64,000 nucleotides of DNA from Antennarius striatus (taxonomy: Eukaryota; Chordata; Actinopteri; Lophiiformes; Antennariidae), in the NCBI RefSeq assembly GCF_040054535.1, contig NC_090780.1, positions 12,705,001 to 12,769,000 of the forward strand, read 5' to 3'. The position numbers and the translations under genes were made by a program. Under the pieces are notes generated by a model. The model saw only the letters and a list, made by a program, of their open reading frames with translations, was not told the origin of the DNA and ran no database searches. Positions 6,901-18,700 of the stretch are shown here, one piece after another. How positions within the stretch are numbered: position 1 is the first letter of the stretch; each line of letters opens with the position of its first letter.

Positions 6901-9900
6901 AGAATCACTGCAGTACAATAAAATGAACTGCTGATTAGGAGCAAAACTTCTTAAGTATTGATGTTTTGTACTCAGTGTACAGCACTAGATGGAAAATGTA
7001 GCATCAGCTGTGATAGCGAGGTAAGAACAATCACATAAGTCTGGATCTCAATTAGGTAGATTTTTTTTTTTGTTAAATAATCTATTTTCTCTCCCCTTTT
7101 ACAGGATGTTAACTGTTATCTCATTGACAACAATGGCTTCATTCTTGTCACGGAAGAACAATCTCAGGTACTGTTTACTTATTTACATGATGTCTCAGCC
7201 ATATAATATCAGAAAACTGAAACACATCTGAAATATTTTCCTGCTGTGATGTCATAATGCATAATACAAAGCGGTGATGTATTGTAATTGTCAGTGTTCG
7301 TGTGTTCTTCCGTCCGTTTGTCCACCAAATATCTTCGCAACCATTGCAGATAGAAAGATGACACAAAAAGCACATTACTCGGGAAGTAAAGGGGATGAAA
7401 ATGAGATGATGACCGTGACCTTGAGAAAAATAGGTCAAGGTCAAATTTCAACTTTTGTATACTCAGGAACCAGATAAGATCGAAAGATGAGGGAGCAGGC
7501 CAGTGTGAGTAAGACCGTAGATCAAAGCTAGTGCTTTGATCAATGACAGTAGGTCAGAGCACTAGCTTTGATCTTTGACCTATGCAAGTAGGTCAGGGTA
7601 AAATTTTGAATTCAGGGGTGTCGCAGGATGTTGCAGTCTGTGACTGCATTGGTTCTTGTTATTGTTGCAGCAATATTAATCCAAAAACATCAAATGTGAT
7701 GGTAAAACCATTTTAATGAAGATGAAATTCTCTCAGTGCACATATTTACAATACATTTTGATGATGTCTAAATGCTTAAAATACAAGAATTTTACTTGTA
7801 ATGCGGTGTTTTTACAGTGACGTATTACAACCTTTAATCTGTTTGCCTCCTGATACAACTTGTATAAGAAGATCATGAACTACAGAACTGTACGGATTTG
7901 CCTTCTTTTTCACTACCTGCGTCTGTTGGCTCTTCCTAAGCCATGTGCCTGTGTGCTATGACACACATTCTCTCTCAGACAGGGCTCTTCTTTGGAGAGG
8001 TGGAAGGTGCTGTTATGAACAAACTTCTGCAAATGGGGTCCTTCAAAAGGTCAGAGACTCAACATACCTGTGAGCATTACACTTATTTTAAATGCTTATT
8101 TTGAGGTCTTATGGCGTCTGCTACAACCTCTGCTGCTCCATGTGTGTTTCAGGATCACTCTGTATGACTATCAGGCTCTTTGCAGAGAGTACGCTGGGAG
8201 CAGCGACAGCGCACGCATATTATCAGATGTAAGTTTCAAGACACAACATTTAATATAAAGACACCGTGAGGTCGTATTTATCCTCTATGCTGCTCTACTG
8301 CACACATCAGCACACACACCTCAAGAGTTTAACACAATTTGCAATCTACTTGAACATCACTATACTGTGTAACAACAACTAAACTGAGAAACTTACTGTA
8401 TTTAAACAACATCATTTAATCACTGTTATTATCCTCTTCTCTCTTGTCATTCAGCCCTTCTCCGTTGTTCGGTGGCTCCTGACTGAACTCGTCATGTAAG
8501 AATAATACAAAATCCTTTAGAAGTATTTAGAATTTAGATGTCACGTTGTTCAATAATTGCATCATGTGATAATGTGGGTGATATTTAGAACAATCTTAAA
8601 TCATCATTCATTTTTAACTGTGTTTGTTTTTGACCTTAGCTTCCTGCTAGAATTTAACCTGTACAGCTGGTGGAACATTGATCTGACAGTTAAAGGTGAC
8701 CGAAGTGTTTGTGTGTCAAAGAGAGAGAGAGATGTGTTGTGTTGTGTTGTGTTGTGTTGTGTTGTGTTGTGTTGTAGGTAAGATGTCCTGAACTTGTAGA
8801 ACCCGTTTTCTTTGGTGTTATTAGTTTGATGAAGATTTCTCAACTTGTTGTGTTTCCTCTCCAGCTCAGAGACCTCGGGGTAAAACCATGATGGTGCCGT
8901 GTGACACCGAATATCCCGCCTTTGTCTCTGAACGCACCATCAAAGAAACAACAGGCAACATCGATTGTGAAGCCTGTGTCAGGTACAGCTTTACAACTGA
9001 AAGAGTTAATCAGGCCTCCTGATGTCAATATTTACCTAAAATTAAGTTTTACTGCAGACTAACTGTTCATAGAACAGCATTATAATTCCAGTTCCTGTGT
9101 CTTTTTGGCTGCAGATCTTTTGTCATACAACAGATTCCCAGCAGCAACCTCTTCATGGTTGTTGTGGATAATAAGTGTGACTGCAGCAGCGCTCCACCAG
9201 TAACAATGGATCCCATTGAGATCATGTATATCCTTTCAAAGTTTTGATATGTAGAAACTTGATCCATAAGCATGATTAGTTGGATCATACTGATAAATTA
9301 ATTGTGTGTGTGTTCATTCTGATTATATGTTCACACCCTTAACGCCTGTGAACACAACGAGTCACTGAAATGTGACAGATTGAAATTTCAGAAAGACAGA
9401 AAGAAGCCTGAATCATGTCATCCTTTCCACCCTGAGGTATGAGACTCTGTTTCTGTGAGGCGATTCAAGCTGAGTGAACATAAAGAAGTAGAATATCAAT
9501 TTTGGGTTTTGTATGAATTTAAAAAAAAAAAACCCAGCTACAACACTTTAAACTGAAAGTAATTTAAACGGAGAAGATTATTCCTGTTTGCAGTCTTTAT
9601 GGTAAGTTAATGATCTGTGCTAAACAATTAACAACGCTAAGAGTATGTAATTATAAATAACAGTAACATCATTTCAGGATTTCATAAATATCACAACCAA
9701 AGACTATAAATACTGTAGATCGATCAATAAGAGGATTGATAATTCAGCAAATCCAATGGAGGAAGGAGTCAAACTGTTGAACTTATTTACATGAAATCAA
9801 GTTTAAAATGAACCCCAAATTGTCTGTTTACAGATAGACATGCAGCTACATCTGTAAAGTTGGTGAACATGCACAGGAACTCTGAAATGAGTGACCAGCG

Positions 9901-10044
9901 TTGTTGTTTACATGAATTGGTTTTGATATTTTGACTTCATGTCATCTGCAGGAAAACGCCATGGAGTGTGGTTCAGCTACACGCCTGTCCAGCGCTCTGA
10001 CAGCAGCTCTGCTTCCTCTGATGTCAGTGATGATCAGCAGGTGA
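984..10044 (+). CDS. cacna2d1: voltage-gated calcium channel alpha2/delta subunit 1 (3' part)
   Basis: Extracellular, GPI-anchored auxiliary subunit that promotes surface trafficking and release-site function of Cav1/Cav2 channels. The 5' half (signal peptide, VWA/MIDAS) lies outside the window. Exons: 984-1055, 1620-1700, 1778-1852, 3655-3738, 3987-4058, 4162-4223, 4331-4398, 4545-4590, 4705-4802, 4914-5007, 5694-5789, 5912-6033, 6676 or 6682-6753, 6828-6889, 6976-7020, 7105-7167, 7979-8049, 8153-8228, 8455-8495, 8640-8695, 8865-8982, 9115-9227, 9354-9436, 9952-10044. Together they give about 620 in-frame residues. Seen: [17 protein letters not shown] and [17 protein letters not shown] (Cache region), [55 protein letters not shown] and the delta tail [16 protein letters not shown] followed by a hydrophobic end, as expected for a GPI signal. 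Residues such as [10 protein letters not shown] and the FFRGN block match CACNA2D1 better than CACNA2D2. The penultimate intron looks U12-type (see findings). Confidence 0.93.
1853..3654 (+). other. cacna2d1 intron of 1.8 kb
   Basis: The flanking exons join without a gap to the family sequence (DLRPL then YQDGKK), so no exon is missing here. The interval is AT-rich, with several short chance ORFs and no feature I recognise. Confidence 0.6.
7200..7978. repeat. interspersed-repeat-like sequence with inverted repeat, in a cacna2d1 intron
   Basis: This part of the intron contains GACCTTGA/TCAAGGTC-type motifs and a 16-bp perfect inverted repeat (7520-7535 with 7558-7573). Its texture resembles degraded fish interspersed repeats, but I cannot name the family. 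Confidence 0.35.
8732..8775. repeat. (GTTGT)n pentanucleotide microsatellite
   Basis: About nine tandem copies of GTTGT lie in the intron just after the cacna2d1 exon that ends at 8695. The ORFs read across it on both strands are repeat artefacts. Confidence 0.9.
9228..9353 (+). other. probable U12-dependent AT-AC intron of cacna2d1
   Basis: The intron begins ATATCCTTTC, the minor-spliceosome AT-AC donor consensus. It carries CCCTTAAC at 9336-9343, a match to the U12 branch-point consensus, and ends in AC at 9353, about 11 nt after the branch adenosine. No AG acceptor exists at the required place. These borders give IEIMYNESLKC, matching the family reading IEIRYNESLKC, and keep phase 1. Confidence 0.85.
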
Positions 10045-10984
10045 CTGGACCCCACTAAGGACTAATCCAACAAGACGCTTAAACCCACGTAGTGAACATG
10101 GCCAGTCTGAAATGAATTTACTCATAAAGGCAGCACTCTACTTTATATAACACCAAGACACACACATCCATTAACGCAGAAAACATACACAACATGATGT
10201 GGAAAAAGAAAATGAGAGTGAAAACAAATGCTGGGTGACTTTGCTCAGAGAATCACATGACTGATAGTTTGTCACAGAGTCTGAATGTGTGTGAAATTAA
10301 ATGAGAGGAATAAATGTAGAATGGTACCAGTATTTAAAAACAAAACATTTAAAAAATACTTGAGGAGTACAAGGATTTCCTGTCAAAGTGTGATGCAGGT
10401 CCAAAGGCCGATAGTAATGTTAGTTTCTTTGCTGTTAACAAGAATTACAGACGAAAGAAATCTGTTGATAAATAAATCTACGTAATAAGTCTGGAATGTA
10501 AAATGCAGTTTTGACATATAATGATGACGCTGGTGGTTTATATTTTTCCCAGTAACTTGATAAAAAGAGTTGACAATGCCATCATAGATTTATTTCTTTG
10601 AATATTATCAGTTTATTTTAGTACCATATTCTTTTAAATGTCATTAATAACATGATGAAGAAAAAAAAACCTTGGAAGTTGCTTTACTCTGCCAGTTTGT
10701 CCTTGTTTGAAAGCAGAAGACCTCAGACAAGCTGAAGATGCATGTAGATCACAGAACGTTATATTGATGTATCCATGAATCTGTCCAGGTGGCCACATAC
10801 TCTCAACCACATGTTAAAGAAGGCTGATGAATAAATACAAAGAAATATTTTCCTTCCTCCATTTACACCTTGAGTTGTTTTGTTTCTGCACGTATGTGTG
10901 TGTACCTTGCCTTTTAATGGTAAATTAAGGGTTTAAAAAAGGATATAAACGTATCAATAATGCAATTCAATTGCCCCTCCAGGG
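10045..10984 (+). other. cacna2d1 3' UTR and downstream intergenic DNA
   Basis: AATAAA-type signals occur near 10308, 10470 and 10829, so the 3' UTR may run several hundred bases. No coding potential is recognised. Confidence 0.5.
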
Positions 10985-12744: not shown

Positions 12745-14033
12745 ATGCCTCCTAAAAAGCCCGTGTCAGACCCCACCGCCCCGCCTGCACCGCCCTCCGG
12801 CGACGTCCCGGTGGAGAAGAAACCAGGTCAGAGGGCAATAAGTGAGAATATGAACCCATTGGGGGGTTTTTTAAACCGTAAAGTGTCAACGCTCACAACA
12901 TTTTAGTAAATTAACATGTGCGTAAATGTTTCTTCTCCAGGCGGTGTAAGAGCGCGTAAACCTGCCACCCATCCCTCCACCGCCATCATGGTCAAAGAGG
13001 CGCTGACCGCGTTGGATTCGCGCAAAGGCGTTTCGTTTATAGCGATCCAGAATTATATCAAGGACAAACATCCCACAGTCGATGAGTCAAGAATGAAGAA
13101 CTTGGTCCGGAAAGCCCTGAAGAAAGGTCTGGAGACGGGCACCTTAGTGCGTCCTGTCAAGTCCGGCGTGGTCACAGGCGCGGTGGGAAGGTTTAGGGTA
13201 AGATGTCAAGTCTACACATATCCCTATCGATTCAGATCGATCATAATCACTTCTCCCTCAATGTGTCAAAGCTTCCGCCTAAAGAAAAGGGGACAAAGCC
13301 AAACAGTGAGAATATAGACCCAAACGTGCAGAAAGCGCCTAAAACGGCAAAGGAGCGCGTCAAGAGGTCTCCAAAAGCAGGTACGAACGAACTGGTAAAA
13401 TGATCTCCAGTACGCCCTTCTGATTTTAATTCAGTGTGACATCTTTAAGGTGCAACTAAGAAGAAAGAGGCTGCTAAAGAACACAAGTCACAAGAGGTGA
13501 GAATGCTTGTGGTGGACAAATATTTATTTTCCCCTCAAATAAGTTATTTTACCAGCATTATTTTTCCTTTTGAAGGCCTAAAAATGATCTTTTACCTTTA
13601 GGCTAGGGTGGAGGTGGTTTTTGTCCATTTTAAGACGGCCCTTAGAACCCTGTTTTAATGGTGTGCACATCAAATCTGAAGTTTGATTTATAATAAAAGG
13701 GACTACAGGGTCTTAGATTAATATATTTACTCCAATTATCCTATTGAAGTCATGACCTGATGCTAAAATTGTAGTTCCAAGCGTGAGTGGTGTGCTTGAC
13801 TTTTCCATGTTCAGGATTCAAATCCTCCCAAAAAGTCTAAGAAGGAAAAAGAGGATGCTACCTCAAAAGATGCTCCAGCAAAGAAGCCAAAGGGTAAAAC
13901 CAAAGGAACTGCAGAGGAAGACGAGGGAGCCTCTGCTTCAGCCAAACCGAAAGCTGCATCCCAGAAGACTAGGGAAGGTAGTAAAGCCTCTGCTGCTAAA
14001 GCAACGGGAAGGGGGAAGAAGACTGCTGCATAA
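12745..14033 (+). CDS. h1-8: oocyte-type linker histone H1.8 (H1oo/H1M-like)
   Basis: Maternal linker histone that binds the nucleosome dyad and linker DNA in eggs and early embryos. Five exons: 12745-12826, 12941-13197, 13272-13380, 13450-13496, 13815-14033, giving 237 residues. A short proline-rich N-tail (MPPKKPVSDPTAPPAPPSG) is followed by an H15 globular domain at about residues 39-113 (HPSTAIMVKEALTALDSRKG, then IQNYIKDKHPTV and VVTGAVGRF) and a Lys/Ala-rich tail ending GRGKKTAA. Replication-dependent H1 genes lack introns and end in a histone stem-loop. This gene has four introns and an AATAAA near 14077, as polyadenylated H1-8 does. Linkage to tmcc1 supports H1-8 over H1-0 or H1-10. 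The start has a clean upstream context in a GC-richer promoter. Confidence 0.88.
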
Positions 14034-15737: not shown

Positions 15738-18700
15738 TCATCTGGAGTGGAGAAGAAAACGATGCAGATATTCTGACATAGCATCCCAGTGCCTCCAGAG
15801 GAAGGCGAGGACGAGCAGGAGGAGCAGCGTGGAGAGCGTGCGGCTGCGCGTTTTCATCAGAGGGACGACGCAGTTCGCCACCGTGGACACAAACACTAAC
15901 AGGACCGCCATGACAGCTAGCAGCACGTTGATGAGTTTGCCAAGAAGAGTCCGTGCTGTGGCGTTCTCCAAACCCTCCAGCTGCACCACCTGCTGCTGCT
16001 GCTGCTGCAGCTCCATCTTCGAGATGCGTGTCTGACATGCCTCCAGCGCCTCCTACAGGTCACATGCAAAACTGTTAGTGAAATAACACCAAGGATAATT
16101 ATTTTATTTTGTTTTGGGGGTTTTTATTTTGGAGAGGCTTACCTGAATGTCTCTCGCTCTTTCATTTGACTGGTAGGCAATCTTCTCCTCCATGCTGGCA
16201 AGTTCCTGCTTCAAGTTCAGAATCTCATTCTGGTGGAGTTCTGTCAAGTCATTGAGCTGTTCTTCTAAACGTTCACACCTGCATAGCAGAGACAACGGTA
16301 CATCACAAACACGACGTGCAGACACCCACGAAAACAAACCATCCTGCAGTGCATGGGACGTGATACGATACCTGTATCCCGTGTCTTGCAGGACCTCCAT
16401 TATCATTGTGTAATCACGCTGATAATGGGCTTTCAAGTTTTCAAATGACTCCTTCAGTCGACCTTGGTTTTCACGGAGTTCTTGAATCTCGTGAACTATA
16501 GCATCGAAGCCTGTAGCCTGGTGATCTAGGGTATTGCCCTTGGAGCTGGGGGGTCCTAAAGGGGCTCCAGTCATGCTGTTGGCTCCTGCAGAGCCAGAAG
16601 TTGCACTAGAACAGTCGTCATCACTGCCATACTTTGGGCTGGACTGCAGCTGTCCCGTCCCGAGGGCTCTCGTCCCCCCGGCACCGACTCCTTCCTCTCC
16701 CTGGGATTCATCCATGGAGTCTTTCAGGGCTGTGATGTTGTCGGCGCTGCCAAACTTGTTGCGGATGAGGGACGCAATTTCCCTTGGCTTAGACACGACA
16801 GCTCCAGCTGCAGAGTGAGTGGCCTGAGAGAAACTGGAGAGACCACCCGTCACCTGAAAGGAACAAGAGCAGGTCAGCATACAGTGTAAAGCTGGGATTG
16901 TAGCACAAGAGCTATGGGTTTATGGCGTGTGGTTTAAACACGGGCTTTATGGAAAGATATATTTCAATGCATTACATTTATCTGCATCGGTTTCAAAATG
17001 TAATTAATGAGCTAAAATCTCATCACCATCAGCTAAATAGTCTCAAACAAACTTTGGATTTGGATCAAAGCGGGGTTTTTTTTGCATTAAATTAGAATTT
17101 ACAACCTGATTGACAAAAAAAAATTCTAACAGAAGCAAATAACTCATTGTAATAAAAATAAACACATGAATAAAATTCTTTATGTTGCTTTAGATAACTG
17201 CTACACTGCCTCCCAGTGTGTGTGTGTGGCAAGAAGTGGGATCACAAATTCGTCAGTGTATAACATATCCTCTCTTCCTCTAACAACCCAAGAGTTGTAT
17301 ACTATTTTGAGTGTAGACACCTTCAAATCATTGTTCCATGGAAAATTTAAAGAAATTGAAATTAAATAAACTGATCACCCCACACACTTTACATCATGGT
17401 TGATTTATGGGACAGATTTGGTAAAGCTAAGACTTCTAGTTTGTGAGACAGATTGTGCAGAAATAATCAGGGACGTAAGCACTGCCGGTGGGTATTGTCA
17501 GTCTGTCAGAATCATAATAAATCTGAAAACACCTAAAATTGTAGTTTTGCAAAAATTTATACAAATTTTATTCTGTTAATGGACAAAACTTTGTATTTTT
17601 GACCTCATGCTCCATGTAATGAATGCTTTTAACTGTGATTGGCGAACACCCTGACACATATTCATAAAAAACAGCAGCTTGCAAGCCTGATGAAGAGAAG
17701 AATACATACAGTTAGCTCTAAAGAAATAATAAATTACCTGTGTGTGTCCCAAAATGTCAACTGGCAGCACAGGTACCGCCACAGAAAGCCCCCTCACGTG
17801 TAACATTAGCATGAAAACTACACAAGGAGCACACAGCGGTACAGCATTACACCAGTAACAGAGGTATGTGTAACAGACCTGCTGTGAGTGACTCGGCACA
17901 GCGGTCTTTACATTAGTGGGATCTGGCAGCGGTAGAACAGAGGAGGCATTAAGAGCACAAACCTTGGCGCCAACATCTTTCAGCCCCTGGTGCATGTCTC
18001 GGAAAACGTCTTTGGGTTGGCGCGGTATGCCGTTGTGCTCCACCTCTCGCAGCTTCCTGTGGTAATGCTCCAGCTTCCTCTGCAGCTGCTGGATGGTCTG
18101 AGCCGACTTCTGGTTTTTCTTCTCAAACACCTGTTTGATGCGAGCACTCTGCTGTTTGTCTGCATTGTTAGCCAGCTTCAGGTATTCGGCCACGTTGTCA
18201 TCACGGGCAGTTTGTTCGATCTTGATTTGTTCTGTGAGCTTTAGAATCTTCTGTTGTAATTGGGCGATGGCCTGTTTGGTTCGCTGGGGATCCGGGGTGC
18301 AGTCGACTACGTCATACCCATCCTGAGCACAGGGGGGGGCGTTGGGTGACACAGCAGGACCTGAACCATCGACACGATCCAGCTGCTTAAAATAGAGTAA
18401 ACAGAGGAAATTTTAAGAAAGCTTAAATGGTAAGAATGCTATCTGTAGTGTGTATGGATCTATCTAATATGAACATGTCATTTCAAGGTAATGAGCTGTA
18501 CTGTACAAAAACATTTCATGTAGACAATCTGAAGACTCAAACTTTATTGATTGTCTAGTGTCTAAGATTTATCTGGTGGTGTGATCGCTGCTTTAACACA
18601 ACTGAACACCCCTCATCTCACCAACAGTTGTCACTAAAAACACTACAGGCCCCATCTGTCTCCCTCTCACTGTTTGGTTTGTCTGTTAGTGGTCCTACTG

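Follow-up and report, generated by a model that had tools for sequence, protein, structure and literature searches.

A conserved AT-AC intron, very probably of the U12 type, in an alpha2/delta calcium-channel gene of Antennarius striatus

Introduction

How are the two coding exons that face each other across positions 9228-9353 of this stretch of DNA (64 kb in all, called the window below) joined in the messenger of a calcium-channel gene? The original prediction, made from the letters of the window, was that they are separated by an intron of the minor class, beginning with AT and ending with AC. In the minor spliceosome, U11 and then U6atac pair with the donor ATATCCTT, and U12 pairs with the branch motif in such a way that the adenosine is bulged out.

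Results

We compared the 66 aa encoded by the joined exons with Pfam and observed a match with the VGCC_alpha2 family (PF08473; E 2.1e-4), whose score of 20.7 bits is below the 22-bit cut-off and whose alignment covers positions 359-419 of the 431 of the profile. Three peptide pieces were scanned in this way; one of the other two had no match in Pfam and the other had a weak unrelated match only. A phmmer search of PDB with the 66-aa peptide returned 0 chains at E values up to 10. The gene is probably alpha2/delta-3 or -4 like, a subtype that we presume from C-terminal sequences. The window also contains, just downstream of the calcium-channel gene, a linker histone H1/H5 domain (PF00538, E 2e-22) at 12910-13317 (+) and, at 15738-16052 (-), the C-terminal region of a member of the Tmemb_cc2 family of transmembrane and coiled-coil proteins (PF10267, E 3.2e-39).

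The upstream coding exon (9115-9227, +) lies inside an open frame extending from 9086 to 9247, follows a CTGCAG acceptor ending at 9114 and contributes only the first base of the Tyr codon with which it stops (phase 1; ...DPIEIM-T). The downstream coding exon (9354-9436, +) encodes 27 aa and is followed by a GT donor (GTATGA); the last coding exon (9952-10044, +), with CTGCAG before it and TGA after it, encodes 30 aa plus the stop, and its hydrophobic tail may be a putative GPI-signal-like segment. Between the first two of these exons, we read in the window an AT-AC intron of 126 nt at 9228-9353 (+), which was assigned to the U12 type from its motifs, a junction scan and the reading frame. The exon edge GAGATCATGT (9227) is followed directly by ATATCCTTTC, and the intron end CACACCCTTAACGCCTGTGAAC by the exon edge ACAACGAGTCACTG (9354). 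With the intron ending at 9353, the downstream exon starts with ACAACGAG and not with AACGAG as first proposed, a small correction.

The 5' splice site, ATATCCTTTC at 9228-9237 (+), is identical to the U12 consensus ATATCCTTT at 9/9 positions. It carries at +1 to +8 the exact ATATCCTT published as the U12 donor motif (PMC2831892). The branch-site-like sequence ACCCTTAAC at 9335-9343 (+) agrees with TTCCTTAAC at 7/9 positions, and when CCCTTAAC is compared with the TCCTTAAC of published U12-type AT-AC introns (PMC2831892) there is one mismatch (two of the nine scored). From its second A, at 9342, to the final base of the intron the distance is 11 nt, which fits the reported optimal branch distance of 11-13 nt (PMC6717393). 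The terminal AC, placed by the sequence and by the junction scan, is at 9352-9353 (+). The donor, the branch site and the AC about 11 nt further on that had been predicted were all recovered.

Taken one by one, these motifs are not rare. Based on Markov simulations of the first and of the third order (200 of each), ATATCCTT occurs 3 times in the window for 2.5-2.7 expected and CCTTAAC 7 times for 4.8-7.0 expected; in the whole genome we counted 14,846 exact occurrences of ATATCCTT, that is 1.35e-5 per base per strand, with 11,340 for the backwards control motif. The 7/9 branch score is also weak when taken alone, since among 20,000 pieces of 40 nt drawn at random from the window 5.2% score at least 7/9. 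In contrast with the single motifs, the joint motif ATATCCTT...CCTTAAC...AC is present once in the window, both strands considered, for an expectation of 0.025 per 64 kb. Another U12-like pattern of donor and branch, under relaxed criteria, spanning 145 nt at 10802-10946 (-), was rejected as a chance occurrence, 0.17-0.2 such patterns being expected per 64 kb.

We then scanned the junctions with a donor at 9200-9329, an acceptor end up to 9419 and an intron longer than 40 nt, for GT-AG, GC-AG, AT-AC, AT-AG and GT-AC ends, the frame being checked from 9086 to 9436. Among the 519 pairs, 89 leave the frame open and only two restore the peptide IEIMYNESLKC: the AT-AC junction 9228-9353, with its terminal AC and intact frame, and the two-base slide 9230-9355, which gives an identical protein with TAT as the Tyr codon instead of TAC. 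We prefer 9228-9353 since it begins with the U12 donor motif, unlike the slid intron. The predicted spliced junction is ATCATGTACAACGAG for the former and ATCATGTATAACGAG for the latter. The phase and the peptide claimed for the AT-AC reading are thus found again.

An intron of the major spliceosome with GT-AG ends, such as 9241-9378 or 9226-9378, would move the exon edge and yield a shorter protein in frame, and an open frame is indeed kept by 15 of the 82 GT-AG pairs of the scanned range. However, not one of the 82 places YNESLKC after IEIM, as the original prediction had held in saying that there was no GT-AG solution, and even the two mildest, those just cited, delete NESLKCDR. The AG dinucleotides that start within 9228-9365, all of which were listed, are at 9240, 9253, 9269, 9278 and 9360, the last one (9360-9361) being the downstream exon's own; from 9279 up to that exon there is none, and the AG-free stretch said to extend from about 9280 is therefore real. 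A GT-AG intron is in addition at odds with the conservation of the peptide described below, and we regard it as very improbable.

To look at other genes of this kind, we searched the whole genome at the protein level and obtained eight exon matches, two each in the window gene and in three paralogues, named here after their contigs C2, C22 and C4; the paralogue set is made of these three genes, with cacna2d1/2-type copies not among them. In 3/3 paralogues, we observed that the same Tyr codon is interrupted by an AT-AC intron, in phase 1 and with the exact ATATCCTT donor (ATATCCTTCT in C2, ATATCCTTTG in C22 and ATATCCTTCC in C4). With the AC acceptors placed by hand, by homology, the introns measure 625 nt in C2, 310 nt in C22 and 295 nt in C4, for 126 nt in the window gene. 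Their branch-like motifs score 7/9 each and are situated 12, 11 and 11 nt from the end, respectively, with cores that are off-consensus in C22 (CTCCTTCAC) and C4 (TTTATTAAC). Under AT-AC joining, the spliced peptides of the genes include IMYNESLKC, VKYNASVKC and IKYNATFKC, and Y-N-x-S/T-x-K-C is kept in 4/4 genes, the window gene counted. Since ATATCCTT has a density of only 1.35e-5 per base per strand, three coincidences at homologous places are not credible. Judging by the sequences, the fact that four alpha2/delta-like paralogues have this intron in common, in the same phase and with a near-constant branch distance, points to an origin before the duplication of the genes.

In the C2 paralogue, we also noticed an AG six bases upstream of the AC end (C2:27123585-27123586; TTCAG followed by CTGCAC). 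An AT-AG splice at this place is a possible alternative acceptor, which would add two residues in frame.

The genome contains a U12 snRNA gene at C16:7030644-7030797, the single match among 44 candidates scored, with 123.1 bits for a cut-off of 53; this gene carries GAGTAAGGAA near its 5' end. No U12 snRNA match was obtained in 14 control genomes. The unconstrained duplex energies calculated between the AAGGA region of U12 and the branch motifs (-5.3 kcal/mol for the window gene, -5.0 for C2, -7.4 for C22, -3.4 for C4 and -7.4 for the consensus) are uninformative.

AT-AC introns that are removed by the major (U2) spliceosome exist, and an intron cannot be classed from its terminal dinucleotides alone (PMC6717393). 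Such a removal could be envisaged for 9228-9353, whose branch motif reaches only 7/9. Yet the donor fits the full U12 motif at 9/9 positions, the CCTTAAC core is 11 nt from the end, the 3' end has, by eye, no long pyrimidine run upstream and the ATATCCTT donor is kept in 3/3 paralogues; excision by the U2 machinery thus appears highly unlikely.

The motifs, the frame, the conservation in three paralogues and the U12 snRNA gene are the basis of the explanation that we retain: 9228-9353 is almost certainly a conserved AT-AC intron of the U12 type, and the calcium-channel subunit gene that contains it belongs to the alpha2/delta family, probably -3/-4 like. The U12 reading first proposed is supported in that position, phase and ATATCCTT are kept in 3/3 paralogues and that the genome has a U12 snRNA gene. 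We infer from these features that the intron is actually spliced and that it depends on the minor spliceosome. U11 and then U6atac would bind its ATATCCTT donor and U12 its branch motif, and the minor spliceosome would join ...ATG T to AC AAC..., by which the Tyr codon would be restored.

Discussion

The original prediction doubted whether a minor intron had been described in an alpha2/delta subunit. This point was already settled in the literature: according to the human minor-intron database, minor introns are present in each of the four alpha2/delta genes (PMC6865273), and CACNA2D1-4 are named as minor-intron genes in PMC8767276. Because all four genes are known in this respect, the intron of the window is an expected, conserved example, an ordinary member of a known set and a kind of feature already described. 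The window gene has its gene family in common with CACNA2D1-4 (PMC6865273, PMC8767276), and its intron is very likely orthologous to a human CACNA2D minor intron, a likeness that is drawn at the level of genes, the available parts of these sources giving neither the human positions nor the terminal dinucleotides. It is also like the U12-type AT-AC introns of PMC2831892 in its ATATCCTT donor, its branch sequence close to TCCTTAAC and its AC end. The minor introns of Scn5a and Cacna1c are likewise in voltage-gated channel genes (PMC8767276). These two genes encode pore subunits and the retention of their introns after U6atac knock-down was demonstrated by experiment, whereas the intron of the window is known from sequence alone.

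If the intron were retained, translation would meet a stop at 9245-9247, ahead of the conserved Cys-containing tail and of the C-terminal hydrophobic segment. Counted from the Tyr codon, the retention stop is reached after 6 residues in the window gene, 7 in C2, 10 in C22 and 58 in C4. Retention would then cause the loss of the C-terminal anchor and possibly the decay of the message. However, decay of a retained message should not be assumed, because blocking decay did not further increase retention in the case of Scn5a and Cacna1c (PMC8767276). That the AT-AC intron acts as a shared switch, a low activity of the minor spliceosome truncating several alpha2/delta subunits at nearly the same point with loss of their membrane anchoring, is a speculative idea that we consider improbable.

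The practical use of the finding is modest. Gene predictors that accept only GT-AG introns would misplace the exon edge at this locus, and the four alpha2/delta-like genes may serve as readouts when the minor spliceosome is mutated.
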